From the NCBI GenBank assembly GCA_950059285.1, contig CATLTV010000034.1:1-35179 (forward strand): 35,179 bases of DNA, given 5' to 3'. Both the position numbers and the translations under genes were made by a program. This document shows positions 6,800 to 32,380 of this stretch, in pieces. Under the pieces are notes generated by a model. It saw only the letters and a program-made list of their open reading frames with translations, searched no databases and was not told where the DNA came from. The DNA comes from an uncultured Pseudomonadota bacterium. GTDB taxonomy: Bacteria; Myxococcota_A; Bradymonadia; Bradymonadales; Bradymonadaceae. How positions within the stretch are numbered: position 1 is the first letter of the stretch; every line of letters begins with the position of its first letter.

Positions 6800-6862
6800 C
6801 AATGAGATGAAAGAAGGGGCGGACCTTGCTGCGCAAGGTCCGCCCCTTCTTTCATCTCATTG
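6800..6862 (+). terminator. Long perfect palindromic terminator after lpd
   Basis: Arms 6800-6828 and 6834-6862 are perfectly complementary over 29 nt, with loop CTGCG (30 bp if the loop C and G pair). The left arm is purine-rich with AAAGAAGGGGCGG and the right arm is its CT-rich complement; CTTTTTTT-like T-rich sequence follows at about 6869-6876. It begins 13 nt after the lpd stop. It belongs to the long-palindrome set described in the findings. Confidence 0.85.
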
Positions 6863-15098: not shown

Positions 15099-15168
15099 GA
15101 GAGTAGTAGACACAAAGAAGGGGCAGGTTGATAAATCAACCTGCCCCTTCTTTGTGTCTACTACTCTC
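15099..15168 (+). terminator. 34-bp perfect palindromic terminator of the protease operon
   Basis: Arms 15099-15132 and 15135-15168 are perfectly complementary over 34 nt with only AA between them. The core is AAAGAAGGGGCAGG and its complement CCTGCCCCTTCTTT, closely related to the lpd palindrome. It lies 4 nt after the stop. The following 167 nt up to the pyrG stop show no gene or second hairpin, so it probably serves both convergent units. Confidence 0.85.
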
Positions 15169-17296: not shown

Positions 17297-17926
17297 ATGC
17301 ACGCCAAAACACCGATCGCTGCGCTCACTCTCATCACATCACTTTTGTGCACACAACATGTCATGGCTCAGGAGGTCTCAACCTCCACGCAGCGCACCAT
17401 TACTCCCTCCATCGGTGCTCGCATCGGCGGCTATGGCTTTCGACAGCTCAACCCCGAAACCGATCTCATCAACTGGGAAAACTGTCGCATGAACGGTGTT
17501 GGCATCTTTGGCAACTTTGACTTCAAGAACACCAAACTCTACTCCGAGATCTCACTGGACACATACTTTGCGACAGCACAAACCATGAACCAGGGCATTG
17601 ATCGCATCTCCTATCATACACAAGGTCTCCTGGGTTACAGGCTCCCCATCACACAATGGCTCGTCCCAAATATTCACCTTGGCGGTGGCGCAGAGCTGAC
17701 ACGCGTTGAGATCTTTCAAAAAACCGACAGCAGAATCACCCCCACTGGATTCATTGGTGTTGGTGGAGAACTCGTCATCAAAGACCTGCATTTTGGCATG
17801 GCTATCCGCACAAATGTCATGCAACTCCCTGAATACGAATGGAATGTAACAGGCGACTCTGCCTCACTTGAATACCATACAGAGCTGGCATCCCAGATGC
17901 TTTTCTCTGTCAGATATACGCTGTAA
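17297..17926 (+). CDS. Outer-membrane beta-barrel protein candidate
   Basis: 209 aa from ATG 17297, with AAGGAG 8 nt upstream; the in-frame extension to 17228 is not supported. Residues 1-25 form a Sec signal peptide (ALTLITSLLCTQHVMA cut before Gln-Glu). The mature part is made of alternating polar and hydrophobic strands with Gly-rich turns: GARIGGYGFRQL, GVGIFGNFDFKN, LYSEISLDTYFAT, LVPNIHLGGGAEL, TGFIGVGGELVI. It ends in LFSVRYTL, a typical outer-membrane protein terminus. The length suits an eight-stranded OmpA/OmpW-like barrel. The function is unknown. The stop codon lies inside the left arm of a 34-bp palindrome shared with convergent clpB. Confidence 0.75.
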   Translation: MHAKTPIAALTLITSLLCTQHVMAQEVSTSTQRTITPSIGARIGGYGFRQLNPETDLINWENCRMNGVGIFGNFDFKNTKLYSEISLDTYFATAQTMNQGIDRISYHTQGLLGYRLPITQWLVPNIHLGGGAELTRVEIFQKTDSRITPTGFIGVGGELVIKDLHFGMAIRTNVMQLPEYEWNVTGDSASLEYHTELASQMLFSVRYTL

Positions 17927-17991
17927 AAAGAAAGAGAGGGGGCGGCAAAAAATCGAAGATTTTTTGCCGCCCCCTCTCTTTCTTTTTACAG
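17921..17991. terminator. 34-bp perfect palindrome, bidirectional terminator between the barrel gene and clpB
   Basis: Arms 17921-17954 and 17958-17991 are perfectly complementary over 34 nt around the loop GAA, closed C-G (CGAAG). The A-rich outer left arm and T-rich outer right arm give a U-run on both strands. It contains the barrel gene stop codon and ends 11 nt before the clpB stop, so it can end both transcripts. The core GGCAAAAAATC-GAA-GATTTTTTGCC is nearly the same as that of the palindrome at 32297. Confidence 0.9.
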
Positions 17992-18002
17992 CCACAGTTT
18001 CT

Positions 18003-20950: not shown

Positions 20951-23158
20951 CTATTCGGGCAGTCCGTTCACGACCGCGTTCAATCCCTCAAGCCAGTCAT
21001 CGACAAACTCACCACTTGCGCTGTTGGTCTCCTCATAGTGTGCACCTGGCGCATCATTGGGCTCAAAATCATACGATGGCACCATGTACCCAAGGAAGTC
21101 CATTCCCAGACCAATGAAGAAAGGATACTCTCCAGGAATCAAGTCATAACCATAGGGAGGATCGGGCGCCAATGACCAGTCAGGAGGATTCTCCTGATCT
21201 GCCTTCACAAGACATGGGAACATGCCAACCTCACCATTCATGGGTGGCAGCCCGTTGATATCACAGGTCGCAGAGACACGCACTTCACCCACATCACCAA
21301 TCACAGGATTCTGTGCCGTCGGCTTACCAGGGTACCCTCCCACCAACAACTCAGGGAACACCTCGCCTGGCGCAGTAAAGAAGCTCAATGGCCCAAGCCT
21401 CACCACTGCAACCTGACTCATGACATGAGGAAAGTTTGGCTCGAAATCAACGAAACCAAGATGCTTGGCGTTGTACATGTCGCGCTCAAATACATTGATC
21501 ACAAACCCAGCTAACAGGAACAACGTGTTGGTAATGGGTGTCAGGAAACGCTTCGTCGCAAACCTGAGCTCGGTATCCTCCAACAATGTAAACTTACCCT
21601 CGTTATGCTGCTGTAAAATGTGCATCGCAATACGCTGACCCACGGCATCGGCCTTGGCATAACCATGCTCTCGATGCTCCACATCAGCATAATCCAGCGC
21701 GCTTGAGTGACCGGGATTAATCAACCCACCCACAGCGCCAGCAAACATCACCGTCACACCGCCAAGACCAGCGAGTGCAGGTTTTCTCACCTCACCATTT
21801 TCCTCAACAGCATCAAGACCTTGCGAGACATACTCTCTCACAAAGTGAAAATAATCCGATGAGATATAAGGGTTGTTGGACCACAGCACCTCGGCATGAT
21901 TACCCACGCTCAACATCGTCCCAATGGGAGCACCACTCATGCTGTCCGTCACGCGCACCACAGGGATGTTATCATCATAAATATAAGGAGGTCGTGAATC
22001 ACTCATCGCCAGCGTCTTGATCCCCTCCTCACCCACATCAATCACGGCGACTTCCACCGTCGCAGGTGCAAGATTTGCTACAGCCTCCTTGATCCCCGCC
22101 ACAGTCTCATCCTGAATGCGCTTCATATAATGTCGATCTCGGCCCGTCCTTACAGGCGCATCCGTGCCTGGCCCCCACTGCCCCACAGTATCAGGGCTTT
22201 CGTGGGAGTGCGTGGAGGACATGACCAGCAAATCAATATCGGCCTCTTCTGCCACACGACGGCGAATCTCATCAATGTAGGTGTGGAAATAGCCAACCGA
22301 ATCAAGCACTGCAAAAGCAACGCGAGTCGACCCCTTCTCAAACACCATGATCTGCACACGAAGATCATCATGCGCATACTTGGAGACACAACACTCTGGC
22401 CCCTCACACCCGATCAACTCCTCGGGACAAAACTGCGCCGCACGCCCCACGGAAAACCCTGCGATCCACATGCCTTGAAGCTCTCCATCGCCCTCGCCTT
22501 CATCAGGCATCATATAACCATCATCGCCTGGACAGAGCCCATCATAGCCGCAATCATTCCAGAGCTCGGGTTTGCGCAAAGGTGGGTTAAAGTTGATGTA
22601 CGCGCCATCAAGTCCCTCGGCGGTGGCGGTCTCAAAACCTTGAGGCGTCACAATCTTGCTCACCGCAGCGGCCCTTAACATACCTGCATTATCCTGACAG
22701 GTATCCAGCCCAGGGCACGCCTCCACAGTGAGCGTGGACTCATCAAGCACACAAACCTGAACCGTGCGATCGCCTGTTGAACGTGGCAAAACTTCACACG
22801 TTTCGCCCTCTCGACAATCACTGTCATTCTCACAGCCGCGATCCTGAGGAGCTACACACTCACAGTAATCGTTGTAATCATAACCTCTTCTACATCTTGG
22901 CAAATCTGGACACTTCAATGGCTCTGACATATCTGACATGTCAGCCATATCTTCTACAACCTGCATATCGGCATCAGGCTGTGTGTCCACACGATCCACA
23001 GGCATGTCAACATCCACTTTCCCCTGATCTGTTGAACCAGAGTCGAGCACATCAACCACAACCTGCATATCTTTTGCTGTCTCTTCAGACTCATTTGAAG
23101 GGCAACCCGTCAAAATCATCGCGCCAAGAAGCACCACCACACACGCTCTTACTTGCAT
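20951..23158 (-). CDS. Lipoprotein with neutral/alkaline ceramidase-like domain
   Basis: Predicted surface or periplasmic hydrolase related to neutral ceramidases (Ceramidase_alk), zinc amidases that split ceramide into sphingosine and fatty acid. 735 aa; the start at 23158 has AAGGAGAT just upstream. The lipobox MILTGC puts the lipidated Cys at 19. Residues 25-80 are an Asp/Met/Val-rich linker. Residues 83-155 form a Cys-rich module with CENDSDC. The ceramidase-like domain starts near 160. STHSHESPD (315-323) aligns with the zinc-binding ATHTHSGP of ceramidases, with the Gly-Pro replaced. GNHAEVLWSN and ISSDYF (418-437) match the HP...SGDY region. An acidic Gly/Asp insertion at 201-226 and a second Cys cluster (243-257) are unusual. 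It is a single-gene unit with its own terminator. The substrate could be another lipid amide. Confidence 0.75.
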   Translation of the reverse strand: MQVRACVVVLLGAMILTGCPSNESEETAKDMQVVVDVLDSGSTDQGKVDVDMPVDRVDTQPDADMQVVEDMADMSDMSEPLKCPDLPRCRRGYDYNDYCECVAPQDRGCENDSDCREGETCEVLPRSTGDRTVQVCVLDESTLTVEACPGLDTCQDNAGMLRAAAVSKIVTPQGFETATAEGLDGAYINFNPPLRKPELWNDCGYDGLCPGDDGYMMPDEGEGDGELQGMWIAGFSVGRAAQFCPEELIGCEGPECCVSKYAHDDLRVQIMVFEKGSTRVAFAVLDSVGYFHTYIDEIRRRVAEEADIDLLVMSSTHSHESPDTVGQWGPGTDAPVRTGRDRHYMKRIQDETVAGIKEAVANLAPATVEVAVIDVGEEGIKTLAMSDSRPPYIYDDNIPVVRVTDSMSGAPIGTMLSVGNHAEVLWSNNPYISSDYFHFVREYVSQGLDAVEENGEVRKPALAGLGGVTVMFAGAVGGLINPGHSSALDYADVEHREHGYAKADAVGQRIAMHILQQHNEGKFTLLEDTELRFATKRFLTPITNTLFLLAGFVINVFERDMYNAKHLGFVDFEPNFPHVMSQVAVVRLGPLSFFTAPGEVFPELLVGGYPGKPTAQNPVIGDVGEVRVSATCDINGLPPMNGEVGMFPCLVKADQENPPDWSLAPDPPYGYDLIPGEYPFFIGLGMDFLGYMVPSYDFEPNDAPGAHYEETNSASGEFVDDWLEGLNAVVNGLPE

Positions 23159-23200: not shown

Positions 23201-23269
23201 GTAAGGAGATAAAAAAAGAAAGGGTGCGCTGGCCTGCGCCAACGCACCCTTTCTTTTTTATCTCCTTAC
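23201..23269 (-). terminator. Long near-perfect palindromic terminator of the 23293-24282 gene
   Basis: Left arm 23201-23233 and right arm 23238-23269 pair over 32 nt with one bulged A and one mismatch, loop CTGC. The T-run falls in the arm (AAAAAAAGAAAGGG and complement). It is placed 24 nt past the stop on the minus strand. Same architecture as the other long palindromes. Confidence 0.85.
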
Positions 23270-23292: not shown

Positions 23293-24282
23293 TCAACGCT
23301 CCAGCGTGGCAAGTTTCTCAACACACGCTTCAAAGCCATAATGATCATCTTTTTTATTCTGTGCAGAGCACAACGCCACGATGTGATCAGGCTCATCACT
23401 CTTCAACTTTTTGGCCATCTCAAGACACCTATCAAAGTAAAACGTGGAGCTTGTGCCATAACGCTCATCACACGCCCGAACAACCTGTGCAGCGCGTGTG
23501 TGTTCAAGCGACTTGGCTTTTTCAAGACACTGATCAAAGTAGAATGTATCACTGCCATGGCGCGCCGAACACACCGAGATAATGCGGTCAGCCTTCACAT
23601 GTTCAAGCGCCTTGGCCTTTTCCAGACACCGCTCAAAATAGAATGCCTTCTTACCATGACGCGCTGAACAGACCTCGATAAGCTGCGCTGAGCGAGCATG
23701 ATCTAGCGCCCTGGCTTGATCAAGACATTGCTCAAAGTAGAACCCTGTGGTTGTACCATGATGGTCAGCACATGCCTTCGCGATCTGCACCGCCTGGGAG
23801 GATCTTCGCCGCTTCTTTTTATGGCCCTTTCTGACGTCGCTTTTATGAGACCTCTTTTTTTTGGAATCCACACCTGATTGAGTCAGCACAAAACCTTCGC
23901 TGCGGCGACCCTTGAGAGCCATTGCATCGATCCTCTGATACTCTCCAAAACCAACAATCTCAACGCGCACCTCAAGACCTGTGCTCGCTGTTAACTTCTC
24001 TGCTTTCACCACACCTTCACGTTGCTTCAGAGGTTGTGAAAACCGATACACATAGCGCCCCTTACCCGACTGCTTTGTATAAATGTTCAACCGAGGCTGG
24101 ATGTTGGCATCCTCCAACTCTCTCCATGATGTCGATGTAATGGCGTATTTTACAGCAACCTTGCTTGAATGCTCTTCAAGGGCGAGCTCATCAAGCGCAA
24201 CCGACACATCATCACCCCCGGCAAATGCCACCATGGGTGCGCAACATACACACAAAACAATCCAAAAACTCACGCGAATCAT
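23293..24282 (-). CDS. Exported two-Cys helical repeat protein, paralog A
   Basis: Unrecognised family, 329 aa. The start at 24282 has GAGGAG 5 nt upstream. Signal peptide 1-21 (VAFA then GG). Residues 22-137 form a beta-rich domain with TSWRELEDANIQPRLNIYT, GRYVYRFSQPLK and VEIVGFGEYQRID. Residues 140-162 are a Lys/Arg/His-rich linker. From 164 there are five tandem units of 33-37 residues. Each has a hydrophobic helix start, Cys, 13-14 residues with FYF(E/D) before a second Cys, then LEKAKALEH-like helix. Spacing C-x13/14-C suggests one disulfide per unit joining two helices. The 26344-27420 gene has the same domain order and a clearly related N-domain. It is a single-gene unit. An alpha-solenoid binding or cell-envelope protein is likely; the function is unknown. 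Confidence 0.85.
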   Translation of the reverse strand: MIRVSFWIVLCVCCAPMVAFAGGDDVSVALDELALEEHSSKVAVKYAITSTSWRELEDANIQPRLNIYTKQSGKGRYVYRFSQPLKQREGVVKAEKLTASTGLEVRVEIVGFGEYQRIDAMALKGRRSEGFVLTQSGVDSKKKRSHKSDVRKGHKKKRRRSSQAVQIAKACADHHGTTTGFYFEQCLDQARALDHARSAQLIEVCSARHGKKAFYFERCLEKAKALEHVKADRIISVCSARHGSDTFYFDQCLEKAKSLEHTRAAQVVRACDERYGTSSTFYFDRCLEMAKKLKSDEPDHIVALCSAQNKKDDHYGFEACVEKLATLER

Positions 24283-24334
24283 AGTCTCCTCACATACAAA
24301 AGTTCAAATCATTGCAGTCATATAAGAGACGTTA

Positions 24335-24405
24335 CTGCGCCCAAAACATTCAAGGGGGCGAATTTTACTGCGTAAAATTCGCCCCCTTGAATGTTTTGGG
24401 CGCAG
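24335..24405. repeat. 34-bp perfect palindrome between divergent genes
   Basis: Arms 24335-24368 and 24372-24405 are perfectly complementary over 34 nt around TGC, closed C-G (CTGCG). Both neighbouring genes point away from it: one starts 53 nt to the left on the minus strand, panP starts 349 nt to the right. It has the same form as the terminator palindromes of this window but does not follow any recognised gene. Confidence 0.9.
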
Positions 24406-24565
24406 CGCTGTGTAAGACTTGCAGAAGGTTAAACATCGTGAGAAAGTGATGAAAGGTCATGACCTAACGTGTGCAGCCCCCTCCAACAGCACACTCTAAC
24501 CCCATGAATATCATGACTTTTCCACCCACACATCAAGACTATCCTTATTAAGTCAACACGTATGG

Positions 24566-24595
24566 TTGAACATTTATAAGCTTTTAAGGTATCTA
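24566..24595 (+). promoter_or_regulatory. panP: Candidate panP promoter
   Basis: TTGAAC (24566-24571), 18-nt spacer, TATCTA (24590-24595), 158 nt upstream of the panP ATG. The long leader makes it only a moderate candidate. Confidence 0.35.
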
Positions 24596-24753
24596 GGCTT
24601 TCGTGTCTGTGTGCGAGACAGCCCACAGCTCACAAGAAAGCCTCACACCATGCAAGCTTTCCCCATCAAGGTGCACAACGACACACGTTGTTTTCAAAAC
24701 ACTCACACAACACATTCAGCACCGTGACCTCTTCTCATCAGGAACAAAGCGTT

Positions 24754-26265
24754 ATGGACCACCCTTTCTCAACGGACACAAGCCTCACCTCCGAGCACTT
24801 TCGCGCACAAATGAGCGACGAGGACAAGTCGTTTGCAGATGAGATTGAACAACTCTTGAGCGACCACCGCAGTCAGAGCAAAACTGTATTGAAAGAAGCG
24901 CATCTGTCCGAGCTTTACGACCGCTTTAACACCACAGAGATGTCCGATGAATCGGGGACGCTCTCGAACTATGCCTCGATCCTAAAACACGATATTTTAC
25001 CTCATGTTGTCAACGTAGGAAGCGAGTATTGCGTGGGGCATATGACCTCGGCGCTCCCTCGTTTTCAGGCCGAAATCTCACGGCTCGTCTCATTGCTCAA
25101 TCAAAACGTCGTCAAGATTGAAACATCTCGCGTCCTGACCTTGATCGAACGTCAGTCCATCGGCATGTTGCACAGACTTGCATTTTCACAATCCGACGAC
25201 TTCTACGCACAACACCTCTTTGAACCATCCAGCGTCCTTGGTGTGGTCACATCAGGTGGTACGCTCTCCAACATCACCGCATTATGGATGGCACGCAAAC
25301 GCCTTGGTCCAGACGAACTTGATGGCAATGAAGTCATCGTGGCCTCGGAACTTGCACACTACTCATTCCGCAAGGCAGCATCACTGCTTGGACTCAAACG
25401 CGACCCCATCAAAGTTCCCGCACACAGCAACGGTGCCATCAACCTGGTCGCCCTTGAAGAGACGCTCACAGAACTTCGTGAAGCAGGTGATCGCGTCCTC
25501 GCTGTGGTCGGCATCGCAGGCACAACAGAGACAGGTGCCGTGGACGACCTCAAAGCCATGGCCGCCATCGCCAAACGCCACAACACACACTTCCACGTTG
25601 ATGGTGCATGGGGCGGAGCACTGTTGCTCTCCAACACACACCGCAACTTACTTGATGGACTTGAACTTGCCGATACGTTCTCCATCTGTGGCCATAAACA
25701 ACTTTACTTACCTCAAGGCATCAGCATCCTGCTCTGTCGCGACCCATCTCTTGGCGCTGGCATCAGGACACAAGCAAAATACCAGGCTCGCCCGAAGTCA
25801 CTCGACCTCGGGATGCACTCGGCAGAAGGATCACGCCCTGCCATGAGCCTACATTTGCACGCTGCATTTCATGTACTTGGCCGACGCGGATATGAGGAAC
25901 TGATTGATACAAGCATTGAAAAAGCCCGCATATTTGCAGAGCTTATCAATGCTCACCCCGCGTTTGAACTGCTCGCCAAGCCAAAGACAAACCTGATTGT
26001 TTACAGATACTTACCAGAGCAATACCGCACCAATACACCAGCGGGCCTCTCTGAACATATCGATCGTGTGAACACGTGGCTTCAGGAGCGACAGTTCCTG
26101 GAAGGCAACTCCTTAATCTCACGCACAACGCTCTCATCAAGCGAACCTTATGGGAGAGGAAGCGTGGTCGCACTTCGTGCAGTGCTGGCAAATCCACGCA
26201 CAACAGCCAAGACACTCCAAAGCGTACTTGAAGAACAAGTCATGCTTGGTGACATGGCTCCCTGA
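24754..26265 (+). CDS. panP: PLP-dependent aspartate 1-decarboxylase, PanP type (group II decarboxylase)
   Basis: Group II PLP decarboxylase. PanP enzymes turn L-aspartate into beta-alanine for pantothenate in bacteria lacking the pyruvoyl enzyme PanD. 503 aa from ATG 24754 (AGGAAC 8 nt upstream); an in-frame TTG at 24688 has no ribosome site. The N-terminal half contains VGHMTSALPRF and LLNQNVVKIETSR followed by IERQSIGMLHRLAF, the pattern I associate with PanP rather than GadB. PLP contacts are HVDGAWGG (Asp283) and GHKQLY (Lys315, Schiff base). TSGGTLSNITALWMAR binds the cofactor phosphate. The panC and panB genes lie 4-6 kb away in the same window, which supports the pantothenate role. 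A glutamate or cysteine-sulfinate decarboxylase is the main alternative. Confidence 0.85.
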   Translation: MDHPFSTDTSLTSEHFRAQMSDEDKSFADEIEQLLSDHRSQSKTVLKEAHLSELYDRFNTTEMSDESGTLSNYASILKHDILPHVVNVGSEYCVGHMTSALPRFQAEISRLVSLLNQNVVKIETSRVLTLIERQSIGMLHRLAFSQSDDFYAQHLFEPSSVLGVVTSGGTLSNITALWMARKRLGPDELDGNEVIVASELAHYSFRKAASLLGLKRDPIKVPAHSNGAINLVALEETLTELREAGDRVLAVVGIAGTTETGAVDDLKAMAAIAKRHNTHFHVDGAWGGALLLSNTHRNLLDGLELADTFSICGHKQLYLPQGISILLCRDPSLGAGIRTQAKYQARPKSLDLGMHSAEGSRPAMSLHLHAAFHVLGRRGYEELIDTSIEKARIFAELINAHPAFELLAKPKTNLIVYRYLPEQYRTNTPAGLSEHIDRVNTWLQERQFLEGNSLISRTTLSSSEPYGRGSVVALRAVLANPRTTAKTLQSVLEEQVMLGDMAP

Positions 26266-26277
26266 TTTTCCTGATAC

Positions 26278-26333
26278 ACAAAAAAAGCCCCGAAGTGCGC
26301 TGGCAAGCCAGCGCACTTCGGGGCTTTTTTTGT
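26278..26333. terminator. 27-bp perfect palindrome, bidirectional terminator between panP and paralog B
   Basis: Arms 26278-26304 and 26307-26333 are perfectly complementary over 27 nt with AA between. Seven A's and seven T's flank a GC-rich stem (GCCCCGAAGTGCGCTGGC), so a U-run follows on both strands. It lies 12 nt after panP and 10 nt from the convergent stop: a textbook two-way intrinsic terminator. Confidence 0.93.
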
Positions 26334-26343
26334 AGGTCTGTGT

Positions 26344-27420
26344 TTATCGTGCAGACCTCTCGATACAACGCCTGAGCTCACTGGCATAACGCGTTGCACC
26401 ACCACAGGCGTTCACCACAGCAGCGTGGTCACGATCAAGCTTTTTGGCGGCAGAGATACAGCTGTTCAAATCAGAGCTGTAAGAGGTGTGCGCATCACAT
26501 GCTGCGATGACCTCACCTGCGTTACGGTGATTGAAGTCCGCAGCCTTTTGAAGGCAGCTCTTCACCTCGGAGTCATAACTTGTCGCCTTACCACAGGCGC
26601 TCACAGCCTCCACAGGGCGGCCCTGAAGCTTGGCAGACTCTTTCAGGCAACTGTTCAAACCACTGGAGTAGCTTGTCGCCACACCACATGCATCCACGAC
26701 CTTGTCTGCAACTCTTGGGAACGGAAGATCAAGTGCAAGCTCAACGCATTTATTCAGCTCGGAGTCATATGAAGTCTGACGATCACACGCCTTGATCAAG
26801 TCGGCCTTGGACGCAGAGGCGCGCCTACCATCGTCGTGACGATCACCTCGTCTGTCATCATGACGGTCACCTCTTCGATCATCGTGACGATCTCCACGAC
26901 GATCTCCACGACGATCTCCACGACGATCATCATGACGGTCATCATGACTGCGGCGAGCGCGGGAGACATTGATGGTCAACTGTTTGGATTCTTTGGATTT
27001 ATAGGAAATTTCATCCACACGAAATGCACCGCTGTAACCCACCACCTCAATACGCACGCTCTTGATGCCATCAATATCCACATCGCGCTTGTTGTAGAGG
27101 ATGCGACCCTTGCGATCCTTGAGAGGCACCGAGTAACGATACACATAGCGACCACGACGACCAGGGGTGTAGATGTTCAAACGAGGCTCAATGCTCGCCT
27201 TTCTGAGATCGCGCCATGAGCGGCTGTCAATGGTGTAATCAAGCACTGCATCACCACGCTTGGAGTAGACCTCCACAGCGTCGAACTCCACATCAATATC
27301 AGGGTTGCTCCCTGCTAACGCGATGCTGGAGATGGACATCACAACACCAAGAATCAATGTCATGATGAAAGAGTTACGCATGTGACCTGCATTGATTACC
27401 AAACCTGCTGACTTACTCAT
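26344..27420 (-). CDS. Exported two-Cys helical repeat protein, paralog B, with Arg/Asp/His linker
   Basis: Paralog of the 23293-24282 product. 358 aa from ATG 27420 (GAGG 7 nt upstream). ATG 27381 would give the shorter MRNSFIMTL start, which better mirrors the paralog and is needed if the promoter at 27436-27466 is real. Signal peptide ends near residue 36 (IALA then GS). The N-domain (about 40-150) has SRSWRDLRKASIEPRLNIYT, GRYVYRYSVPLK and IEVVGYSGAFRVD. Residues 154-205 are a low-complexity linker of DRRG and DRHD units. From 206 there are five units of about 30-33 residues, each with C-x12-C around (T/S)YxSxL: CDRQTSYDSELNKC, CGVATSYSSGLNSC, CGKATSYDSEVKSC, CDAHTSYSSDLNSC, CGGATRYASELRRC. 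Function unknown. The charged linker differs in sequence from the paralog's but sits at the same place. Confidence 0.85.
   Translation of the reverse strand: MSKSAGLVINAGHMRNSFIMTLILGVVMSISSIALAGSNPDIDVEFDAVEVYSKRGDAVLDYTIDSRSWRDLRKASIEPRLNIYTPGRRGRYVYRYSVPLKDRKGRILYNKRDVDIDGIKSVRIEVVGYSGAFRVDEISYKSKESKQLTINVSRARRSHDDRHDDRRGDRRGDRRGDRHDDRRGDRHDDRRGDRHDDGRRASASKADLIKACDRQTSYDSELNKCVELALDLPFPRVADKVVDACGVATSYSSGLNSCLKESAKLQGRPVEAVSACGKATSYDSEVKSCLQKAADFNHRNAGEVIAACDAHTSYSSDLNSCISAAKKLDRDHAAVVNACGGATRYASELRRCIERSAR
26886..26933 (-). repeat. 12-bp minisatellite in the paralog B linker
   Basis: GACGATCTCCAC (plus-strand reading) occurs three times exactly at 26886-26921, followed by a diverged fourth copy; looser copies extend from about 26830 to 26957. 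It encodes the DRRG/DRHD linker. Units of 12 bp keep the frame, so slippage would change linker length without breaking the gene. Confidence 0.85.
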
Positions 27421-27554: not shown

Positions 27555-27639
27555 GGTTGATGATGAGGAGTGTTCCTCATTCATTCTAAAACAACAGACG
27601 CCGCCCTGTGAGCATCTATTCAGATAAAGTGAAAAAAAC

Positions 27640-27674
27640 AAACGGCGAGCTGGTTATGAACCAGCTCGCCGTTT
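27640..27674 (-). terminator. Intrinsic terminator of the etf operon
   Basis: Perfect 16-bp stem (AAACGGCGAGCTGGTT at 27640-27655, complement at 27659-27674), loop ATG. On the minus strand it is followed by GTTTTTTTC. It lies 34 nt after the etfA stop. Confidence 0.92.
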
Positions 27675-27708
27675 ATCACAGAACTTTGCAAAAGCTCAGG
27701 TAAGTAGA

Positions 27709-32296: not shown

Positions 32297-32380
32297 CTTG
32301 GACGCGAATAAAGGGCGCGGCTGGGGGGGCAAAAATCGAAGATTTTTGCCCCCCAGCCGCGCCCTTTATTCGCGTCCAAG
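32297..32380 (-). terminator. Longest palindromic terminator (41/40-nt arms), after the LRR-like genes
   Basis: Arms 32297-32337 and 32341-32380 are complementary throughout except for one extra G in a run (7 G against 6 C), around loop GAA closed C-G. The core GGCAAAAATC-GAA-GATTTTTGCC is nearly that of the 17921 palindrome. It begins 10 nt after the stop at 32390 and lies upstream of panB. Confidence 0.88.

Follow-up and report, generated by a model that had tools for sequence, protein, structure and literature searches.

A paralogous pair of putatively exported proteins built on a two-Cys helical-hairpin repeat in Myxococcota

Two genes on the minus strand of a 35,179-nucleotide stretch of Bradymonadaceae DNA (the whole stretch analyzed, hereafter the window) lie on either side of a panP-like gene and encode proteins that each end in five units with two Cys. 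The locus raises the question of what this repeat is, whether the equal number of units and the position of panP carry any meaning, and what proteins of this design could do. Both open reading frames noted in the preliminary description of the locus are present, and their products, here wA and wB, are paralogs by BLASTP (28% identity, 326 positions, E 6e-26). They are the only copies found in the source genome (6.65 Mb, 441 contigs). The features are listed with the evidence in parentheses.

23212..23259, minus strand: terminator-like hairpin 3' of wA, ahead of the next gene (20951-23158) (sequence)
23293..24282, minus strand: gene wA, 329 aa (ORF, BLASTP paralogy, predicted structure)
23296..23799, minus strand: wA Cys-hairpin array, residues 162-329 (unit reading, AlphaFold)
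23917..24195, minus strand: predicted beta-sandwich domain at the wA N-terminus, residues 30-122, resembling FnIII/Ig domains (AlphaFold, Foldseek)
24220..24282, minus strand: putative wA signal peptide, residues 1-21, ending ...VAFA/GGD (sequence, inference)
24688..26265, plus strand: PanP-like PLP-dependent decarboxylase between wA and wB, outside the array family (NCBIfam, neighbourhoods)
26278..26333, no single strand: bidirectional terminator-like hairpin common to the convergent ends of panP and wB (sequence)
26344..27420, minus strand: gene wB, 358 aa (ORF, BLASTP paralogy, AlphaFold)
26347..26814, minus strand: wB Cys-hairpin array, residues 203-358 (unit reading, AlphaFold)
26815..27003, minus strand: wB Arg/Asp/His linker, residues 140-202, predicted to be disordered (AlphaFold, DNA repeat)
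27004..27285, minus strand: predicted beta-sandwich domain at the wB N-terminus, residues 46-139 (AlphaFold, Foldseek)
27313..27420, minus strand: putative wB signal peptide region, residues 1-36, ending ...SIALA/GSN (sequence, inference)
27637..27677, minus strand: terminator-like hairpin 3' of etfA, upstream of wB (sequence)

Both products run from a signal peptide without a lipobox through a beta N-domain and a charged linker into the Cys array, and an inner start of wB at residue 14 (27379-27381) is possible. As first described, the N-domains share the motifs PRLNIYT, GRYVYR[FY]S and VG[FY], and the linker is Lys/Arg-rich in wA and rich in Arg, Asp and His in wB. The DNA of the wB linker is a 12/24-nt tandem repeat, so that linker length can slip. 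All five units of wB are spaced C-x12-C (C212/225, 245/258, 276/289, 308/321, 339/352); the wider units of wA follow in the order C-x14, x13, x13, x14, x14-C (C171/186, C205/219, C238/252, C271/286, C305/320). The preliminary description was right about these spacings and about five units per protein, but the sequence marks it gave to the two unit types, FYF in wA and TSY in wB, each occur in only four of the five units, the fifth reading HYGF and TRY, respectively. The mature proteins contain exactly ten Cys each, all inside units; three further Cys of wA lie in the signal peptide.

The proposal that each unit is a helical hairpin with one Cys pair, and the array a solenoid of such hairpins, is supported by AlphaFold models together with the strict Cys pairing. 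For wB, AlphaFold2 gave ten helices forming five hairpins with three-residue loops (205-215/219-230, 235-248/252-262, 269-279/283-293, 301-311/315-325 and 332-342/346-357) at an array pLDDT of about 90, an N-domain of seven strands and a short helix at about 70-80, and a disordered linker. The model of wA has the same layout at lower confidence (pLDDT about 75) and loops of about five residues, and in both proteins each helix of a hairpin carries one Cys. These models were computed from alignments of only 7 (wB) and 5 (wA) sequences and have pTM values of 0.45 and 0.39. Foldseek found no significant match to the whole models in the PDB at E 1e-3 and none among viral structure models. The best partial matches were FnIII and Ig-like domains, by way of the N-domain (TMt up to 0.66 to FnIII monobodies, with E above 1e-3), and another partial match was to a designed helical assembly (TM 0.31).

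The unit recurs in 38 proteins, the window pair and relatives, with 189 units in all, and the repeat of wA and wB is therefore not a chance pattern. The spacing is C-x12-C in 159 of the 189 units, and the commonest gap from the second Cys to the first of the next unit is 18, which gives a period of 13 + 18 = 31. A rough consensus reads [PA]-A-x-[VAT]-[IV]-x-A-C-[DG]-x-A-[TFM]-x-[GFY]-[DS]-S-[DN]-x-L-x-C-[LVI]-x-x-A. The two Cys, at unit positions 10 and 23, stand among hydrophobic positions on the same helix face (93% hydrophobic at position 7, 96% at 24 and 80% at 27); the conserved hydrophobic positions, both Cys included, occupy one face of each helix. When Cys was masked in the model and in the proteins, both Cys were found to be kept in 147 of 148 recognized units, a count made on proteins collected with a Cys-bearing profile, by which Cys-less arrays would be missed; the single exception is an alignment shift, and the unit concerned still has two Cys. 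Outside the Cys, each polar residue stays below 40% at every unit position, which favors a scaffold over an active site.

The earlier reader had recognized no family, and indeed the repeat falls within no Pfam, NCBIfam or PDB family; it is not confined to this lineage, however, being found in other Myxococcota families and resembling the hairpins of DUF4476 (PF14771). Array proteins had no convincing match in NCBIfam or PHROGs, the N-domain had none in Pfam, and a literature search found no paper describing the repeat. Where homologs exceed a Pfam cut-off, the match is a short C-x12-C look-alike. Thus stn_TNFRSF12A (PF12191) aligned to wB over about 40 residues at 17.6-21.9 bits, below its cut-off of 24.9, reached E 1.4e-6 and 29.2 bits in one homolog, where it covered 46 residues of a 129-position model, and was weaker in ten others. 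Local matches of 18-24 residues in a few homologs were given by CBM_14 (E 1.5e-5) and Cys_rich_FGFR (E 2.7e-6), both over cut-off in the homologs with wB below it, and by Cin1_N (two homologs, E 2.5e-5 and 5.8e-5, below cut-off). Were these matches taken at face value, the unit would be a small disulfide beta module of the TNFR or peritrophin kind. We consider this very improbable: each match is confined to 18-46 residues at one C-x12-C, without the remaining Cys pairs that such domains have, and several mutually unrelated families are hit; wB itself stays below the Pfam cut-offs, and in the AlphaFold models the loop is flanked by helices. We accordingly rejected the matches to TNFR, peritrophin and FGFR families, and wA and wB belong to none of the tested families.

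The array profile matched 15 of the 21 genomes of the same family and none of the remaining genomes of the same class. Elsewhere in Myxococcota it matched 17 of about 320 genomes (families f18, f19, f24, f29, f32, f42 and f44), and the distribution in the phylum is therefore patchy. An exact pattern taken from a closer alignment, the first alignment having no conserved stretch, hit five loci in a genome contig collection, only in MAGs labelled Myxococcales and in Lujinxingia; the direct wB peptide pattern had no match there. We found no relatives in viral contigs or plasmids. Signal peptides occur throughout the homologs. Within the same family the array is also found without the N-domain (L012, L014, L015, L016) and the N-domain without the array (L017, L019, L026), and in one genome (G014) an N-domain-only gene adjoins an array gene (L106 7940-8623 and 8779-9738), as expected of modules. 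One candidate (G050, L018) was set aside as a linker match to a DUF4476 protein rather than an array. Outside the window's family, an eight-unit, more degenerate array follows a similar beta N-domain (L152 1213-2631, G217:C513), and another array has shorter links, mostly 13 rather than 18 residues between Cys pairs (L151 1712-2506, G116:C94), as if its second helix or connector had been trimmed.

Our survey of gene neighbourhoods covered 24 loci and found no conserved operon partner or neighbour, the array gene being the sole family common to all. A small Cys-rich lipoprotein gene stands beside the array gene at only three loci, from three genera (L114 7656-8306, L167 9958-10674, L168 6929-7765). 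In the window, wA is probably transcribed on its own, because the terminator-like hairpin at 23212..23259 separates it from the next gene, and an operon with gene 20951-23158 was rejected on that ground. The product of that gene is a secreted lipoprotein that weakly resembles neutral ceramidase (E 0.0047, below the cut-off), and the gene adjoins the array gene in the syntenic genome G007 also. Similarly, wB is probably its own transcript because of the terminator-like hairpin upstream (27637..27677). The window also contains long intergenic inverted repeats, perfect or nearly so, at 6800-6862, 15099-15168, 17920-17992, 24335-24405, 26278-26333 and 32297-32380, with arms of 27-38 nt and loops of 2-8 nt. 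They exceed ordinary terminators in length; the repeat at 24335-24405 has no T run, and its 29-39-bp core occurs at about 15 other sites in the genome.

Comparison with G007 bears on both the number of units and the place of panP. There the gene order is a large lipoprotein, one six-unit array gene, etfA, etfB, a TetR gene and panC; the window repeats this order, except that it carries a second array gene, with panP between the two. Units 1-4 of wB, whose nearest relative has six units, are in register with their counterparts in the G007 ortholog (diagonal identities of 0.43-0.50). The units of wA are homogenized, with up to 0.64 identity among themselves and no register with wB, and the wA array was therefore rebuilt after the duplication. 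A tree of the N-domain pairs wA with wB as sisters (92/88), the wA branch measuring 1.74 against 0.32; because the branches are long, this placement is provisional. The two fives thus arose separately rather than as one inherited number. Together with the range of three to eight units among the 38 proteins and six in the syntenic ortholog, this leaves the suggested selection for a fixed length of five unsupported.

The flanking of panP, which the same description had mentioned, turned out to be specific to this lineage and incidental, as panP is absent from this place in the closest syntenic genome, where the array gene is single. The best NCBIfam match of 24688-26265 is PanP (476 bits, below the curated cut-off of 606), and the gene lies near panB and panC. 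None of 18 relatives has a homolog at E 1e-80, and panP was therefore probably acquired. A functional link of the array genes to panP was rejected on the neighbourhood comparison and the lack of a match in those relatives at that threshold.

The best explanation, which we consider fairly probable, is that wA and wB arose by recent duplication within a secreted, non-enzymatic scaffold family whose stapled hairpin units bind a partner. We infer that the proteins would be exported by Sec to the periplasm, outer surface or medium. The disordered charged linker would keep the FnIII/Ig-like beta domain and the C-terminal alpha-solenoid apart, and in each unit, a helix-loop-helix of about 31 residues, the buried-face Cys of the two helices would form an intra-hairpin disulfide. 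With each unit stapled separately, the number of units could drift. The exposed faces of the solenoid may bind a protein, glycan or peptide, while the N-domain or linker may anchor or dock the protein.

The ten strictly kept Cys, together with the His/Asp-rich linker of wB, could also be read as metal, haem or redox sites, the array being metal-binding or thiol-active and the linker adding ligands. We regard this as quite unlikely, as C-x12-C spans two helices, units have no CxxC and no conserved His, Met or third Cys, the linkers of homologs differ freely in make-up, Ser/Ala and Pro/Gly types among them, and export would take the proteins to an oxidising compartment. Their putative export would also suit secreted weapons or adhesins, and Bradymonadales include facultative predators (PMC7460792, PMC7188933). 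A role in predation is nevertheless unlikely, since the array is missing from 6 of the 21 same-family genomes, two of them single-contig, and the neighbourhoods of the array gene show no conserved toxin, secretion or pilus gene. The two single-contig genomes are presumably those of Persicimonas caeni and Bradymonas sediminis, both predators.

Compatible with the stapled-scaffold explanation is a proposal on origin, to which we give just under an even chance: the Cys unit may descend from, or share an ancestor with, the Cys-free hairpin of DUF4476, the staple having been added to an exported solenoid. DUF4476 proteins occur in 99 of 284 Myxococcota genomes, though not in the source genome, and often share the architecture of the array proteins in the same genomes, with a signal peptide, an S/A- or R/D/H-rich linker and a C-terminal helical domain. 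The period is similar (30-31), as is the order of an aromatic-Ser-x-Asp loop, a helix, D-P and a helix. A Cys-masked two-unit profile aligned to DUF4476 in register over 48 columns (58/62 at a lower threshold) with a score of 18.3, above all 200 local-mode column shuffles (two sets of 100, maxima 12.0 and 14.2), and consensus sequences of TPR, ANK, PPR, SEL1 and HEAT scored 5-8.5. With the masked HMM, 14 of 20 DUF4476 domains ranked 14-63 among 2594 fragments, the background being fragments of neighbouring ORFs (Mann-Whitney p 1e-13), and the reciprocal test gave p 9e-11. Against this, the unmasked comparison was insignificant (2 of 100 shuffles equally good), the HHalign probability was 13%, and the Pfam model of DUF4476 was called in no array and found in neither wA nor wB at E up to 10. 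A PDB sequence search with DUF4476 returned one weak, unrelated match. As the column shuffles do not keep helical amphipathicity, and convergence among helical hairpins is common, the link is suggestive of a common origin but not proof, and convergence may also account for it.

More tentatively, and with somewhat less than even confidence, we picture a soft-core DUF4476-type hairpin in exported Myxococcota solenoids that gained one disulfide per unit and became a self-contained module, to be added, lost or rebuilt independently; in wA such a rebuilding would have followed a recent duplication and come with a wider loop. If the DUF4476 link is true, it offers a natural experiment in the gain of disulfides, unit by unit, by a solenoid, and a fold for a widespread exported domain of unknown function. 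The repeat has no name but can be clearly defined (about 31 residues, C-x12-C, 3-8 units); present libraries either overlook it or label it wrongly, and its motif resemblances would mislead automatic annotation toward TNF-receptor, chitin-binding or FGFR-type Cys repeats. It may also serve as a scaffold of independently stapled modules.

Among known systems, the extracellular domain of TNFRSF12A (Fn14, PF12191) shares the local C-x12-C with the array, which lacks the receptor domain's other Cys pairs, and the resemblance is at motif level only. The Cin1 repeat of Venturia inaequalis (PF20738) forms secreted tandem repeats with a helix-loop-helix core (PMC4617103), but it is fungal, its 52-64-aa units are three-helix bundles, and the match is limited to 24 residues. 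In H. pylori CagY, the repeat region is exported and alpha-helical, its Cys are regularly placed and its copy number varies (PMC2581425); its A motif, unlike the array unit, is TPR-like, with 38-39 aa and three Cys, and is part of a secretion-system sheath. DUF4476 resembles the array in hairpin period, SFSSD-type loop, exported linker architecture and phylum and differs in having no Cys staple, in a Pfam model that misses the arrays, and in a link significant only with Cys masked. The SEL1-like repeats of Helicobacter HcpB and HcpC have a period of 36 against about 31 here, wA, wB and homologs have no SEL1 or TPR among their Pfam matches, and a sequence search of PDB chains with the array gave nothing at E up to 10. 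The Hcp repeats are disulfide-bridged alpha/alpha repeats; in the array, alpha hairpins are predicted and the Cys are strictly paired, with bonds that are presumed, and we think that the array proteins work like the Hcp/SEL1-like disulfide solenoids (PMC2581425) without being members of that family.
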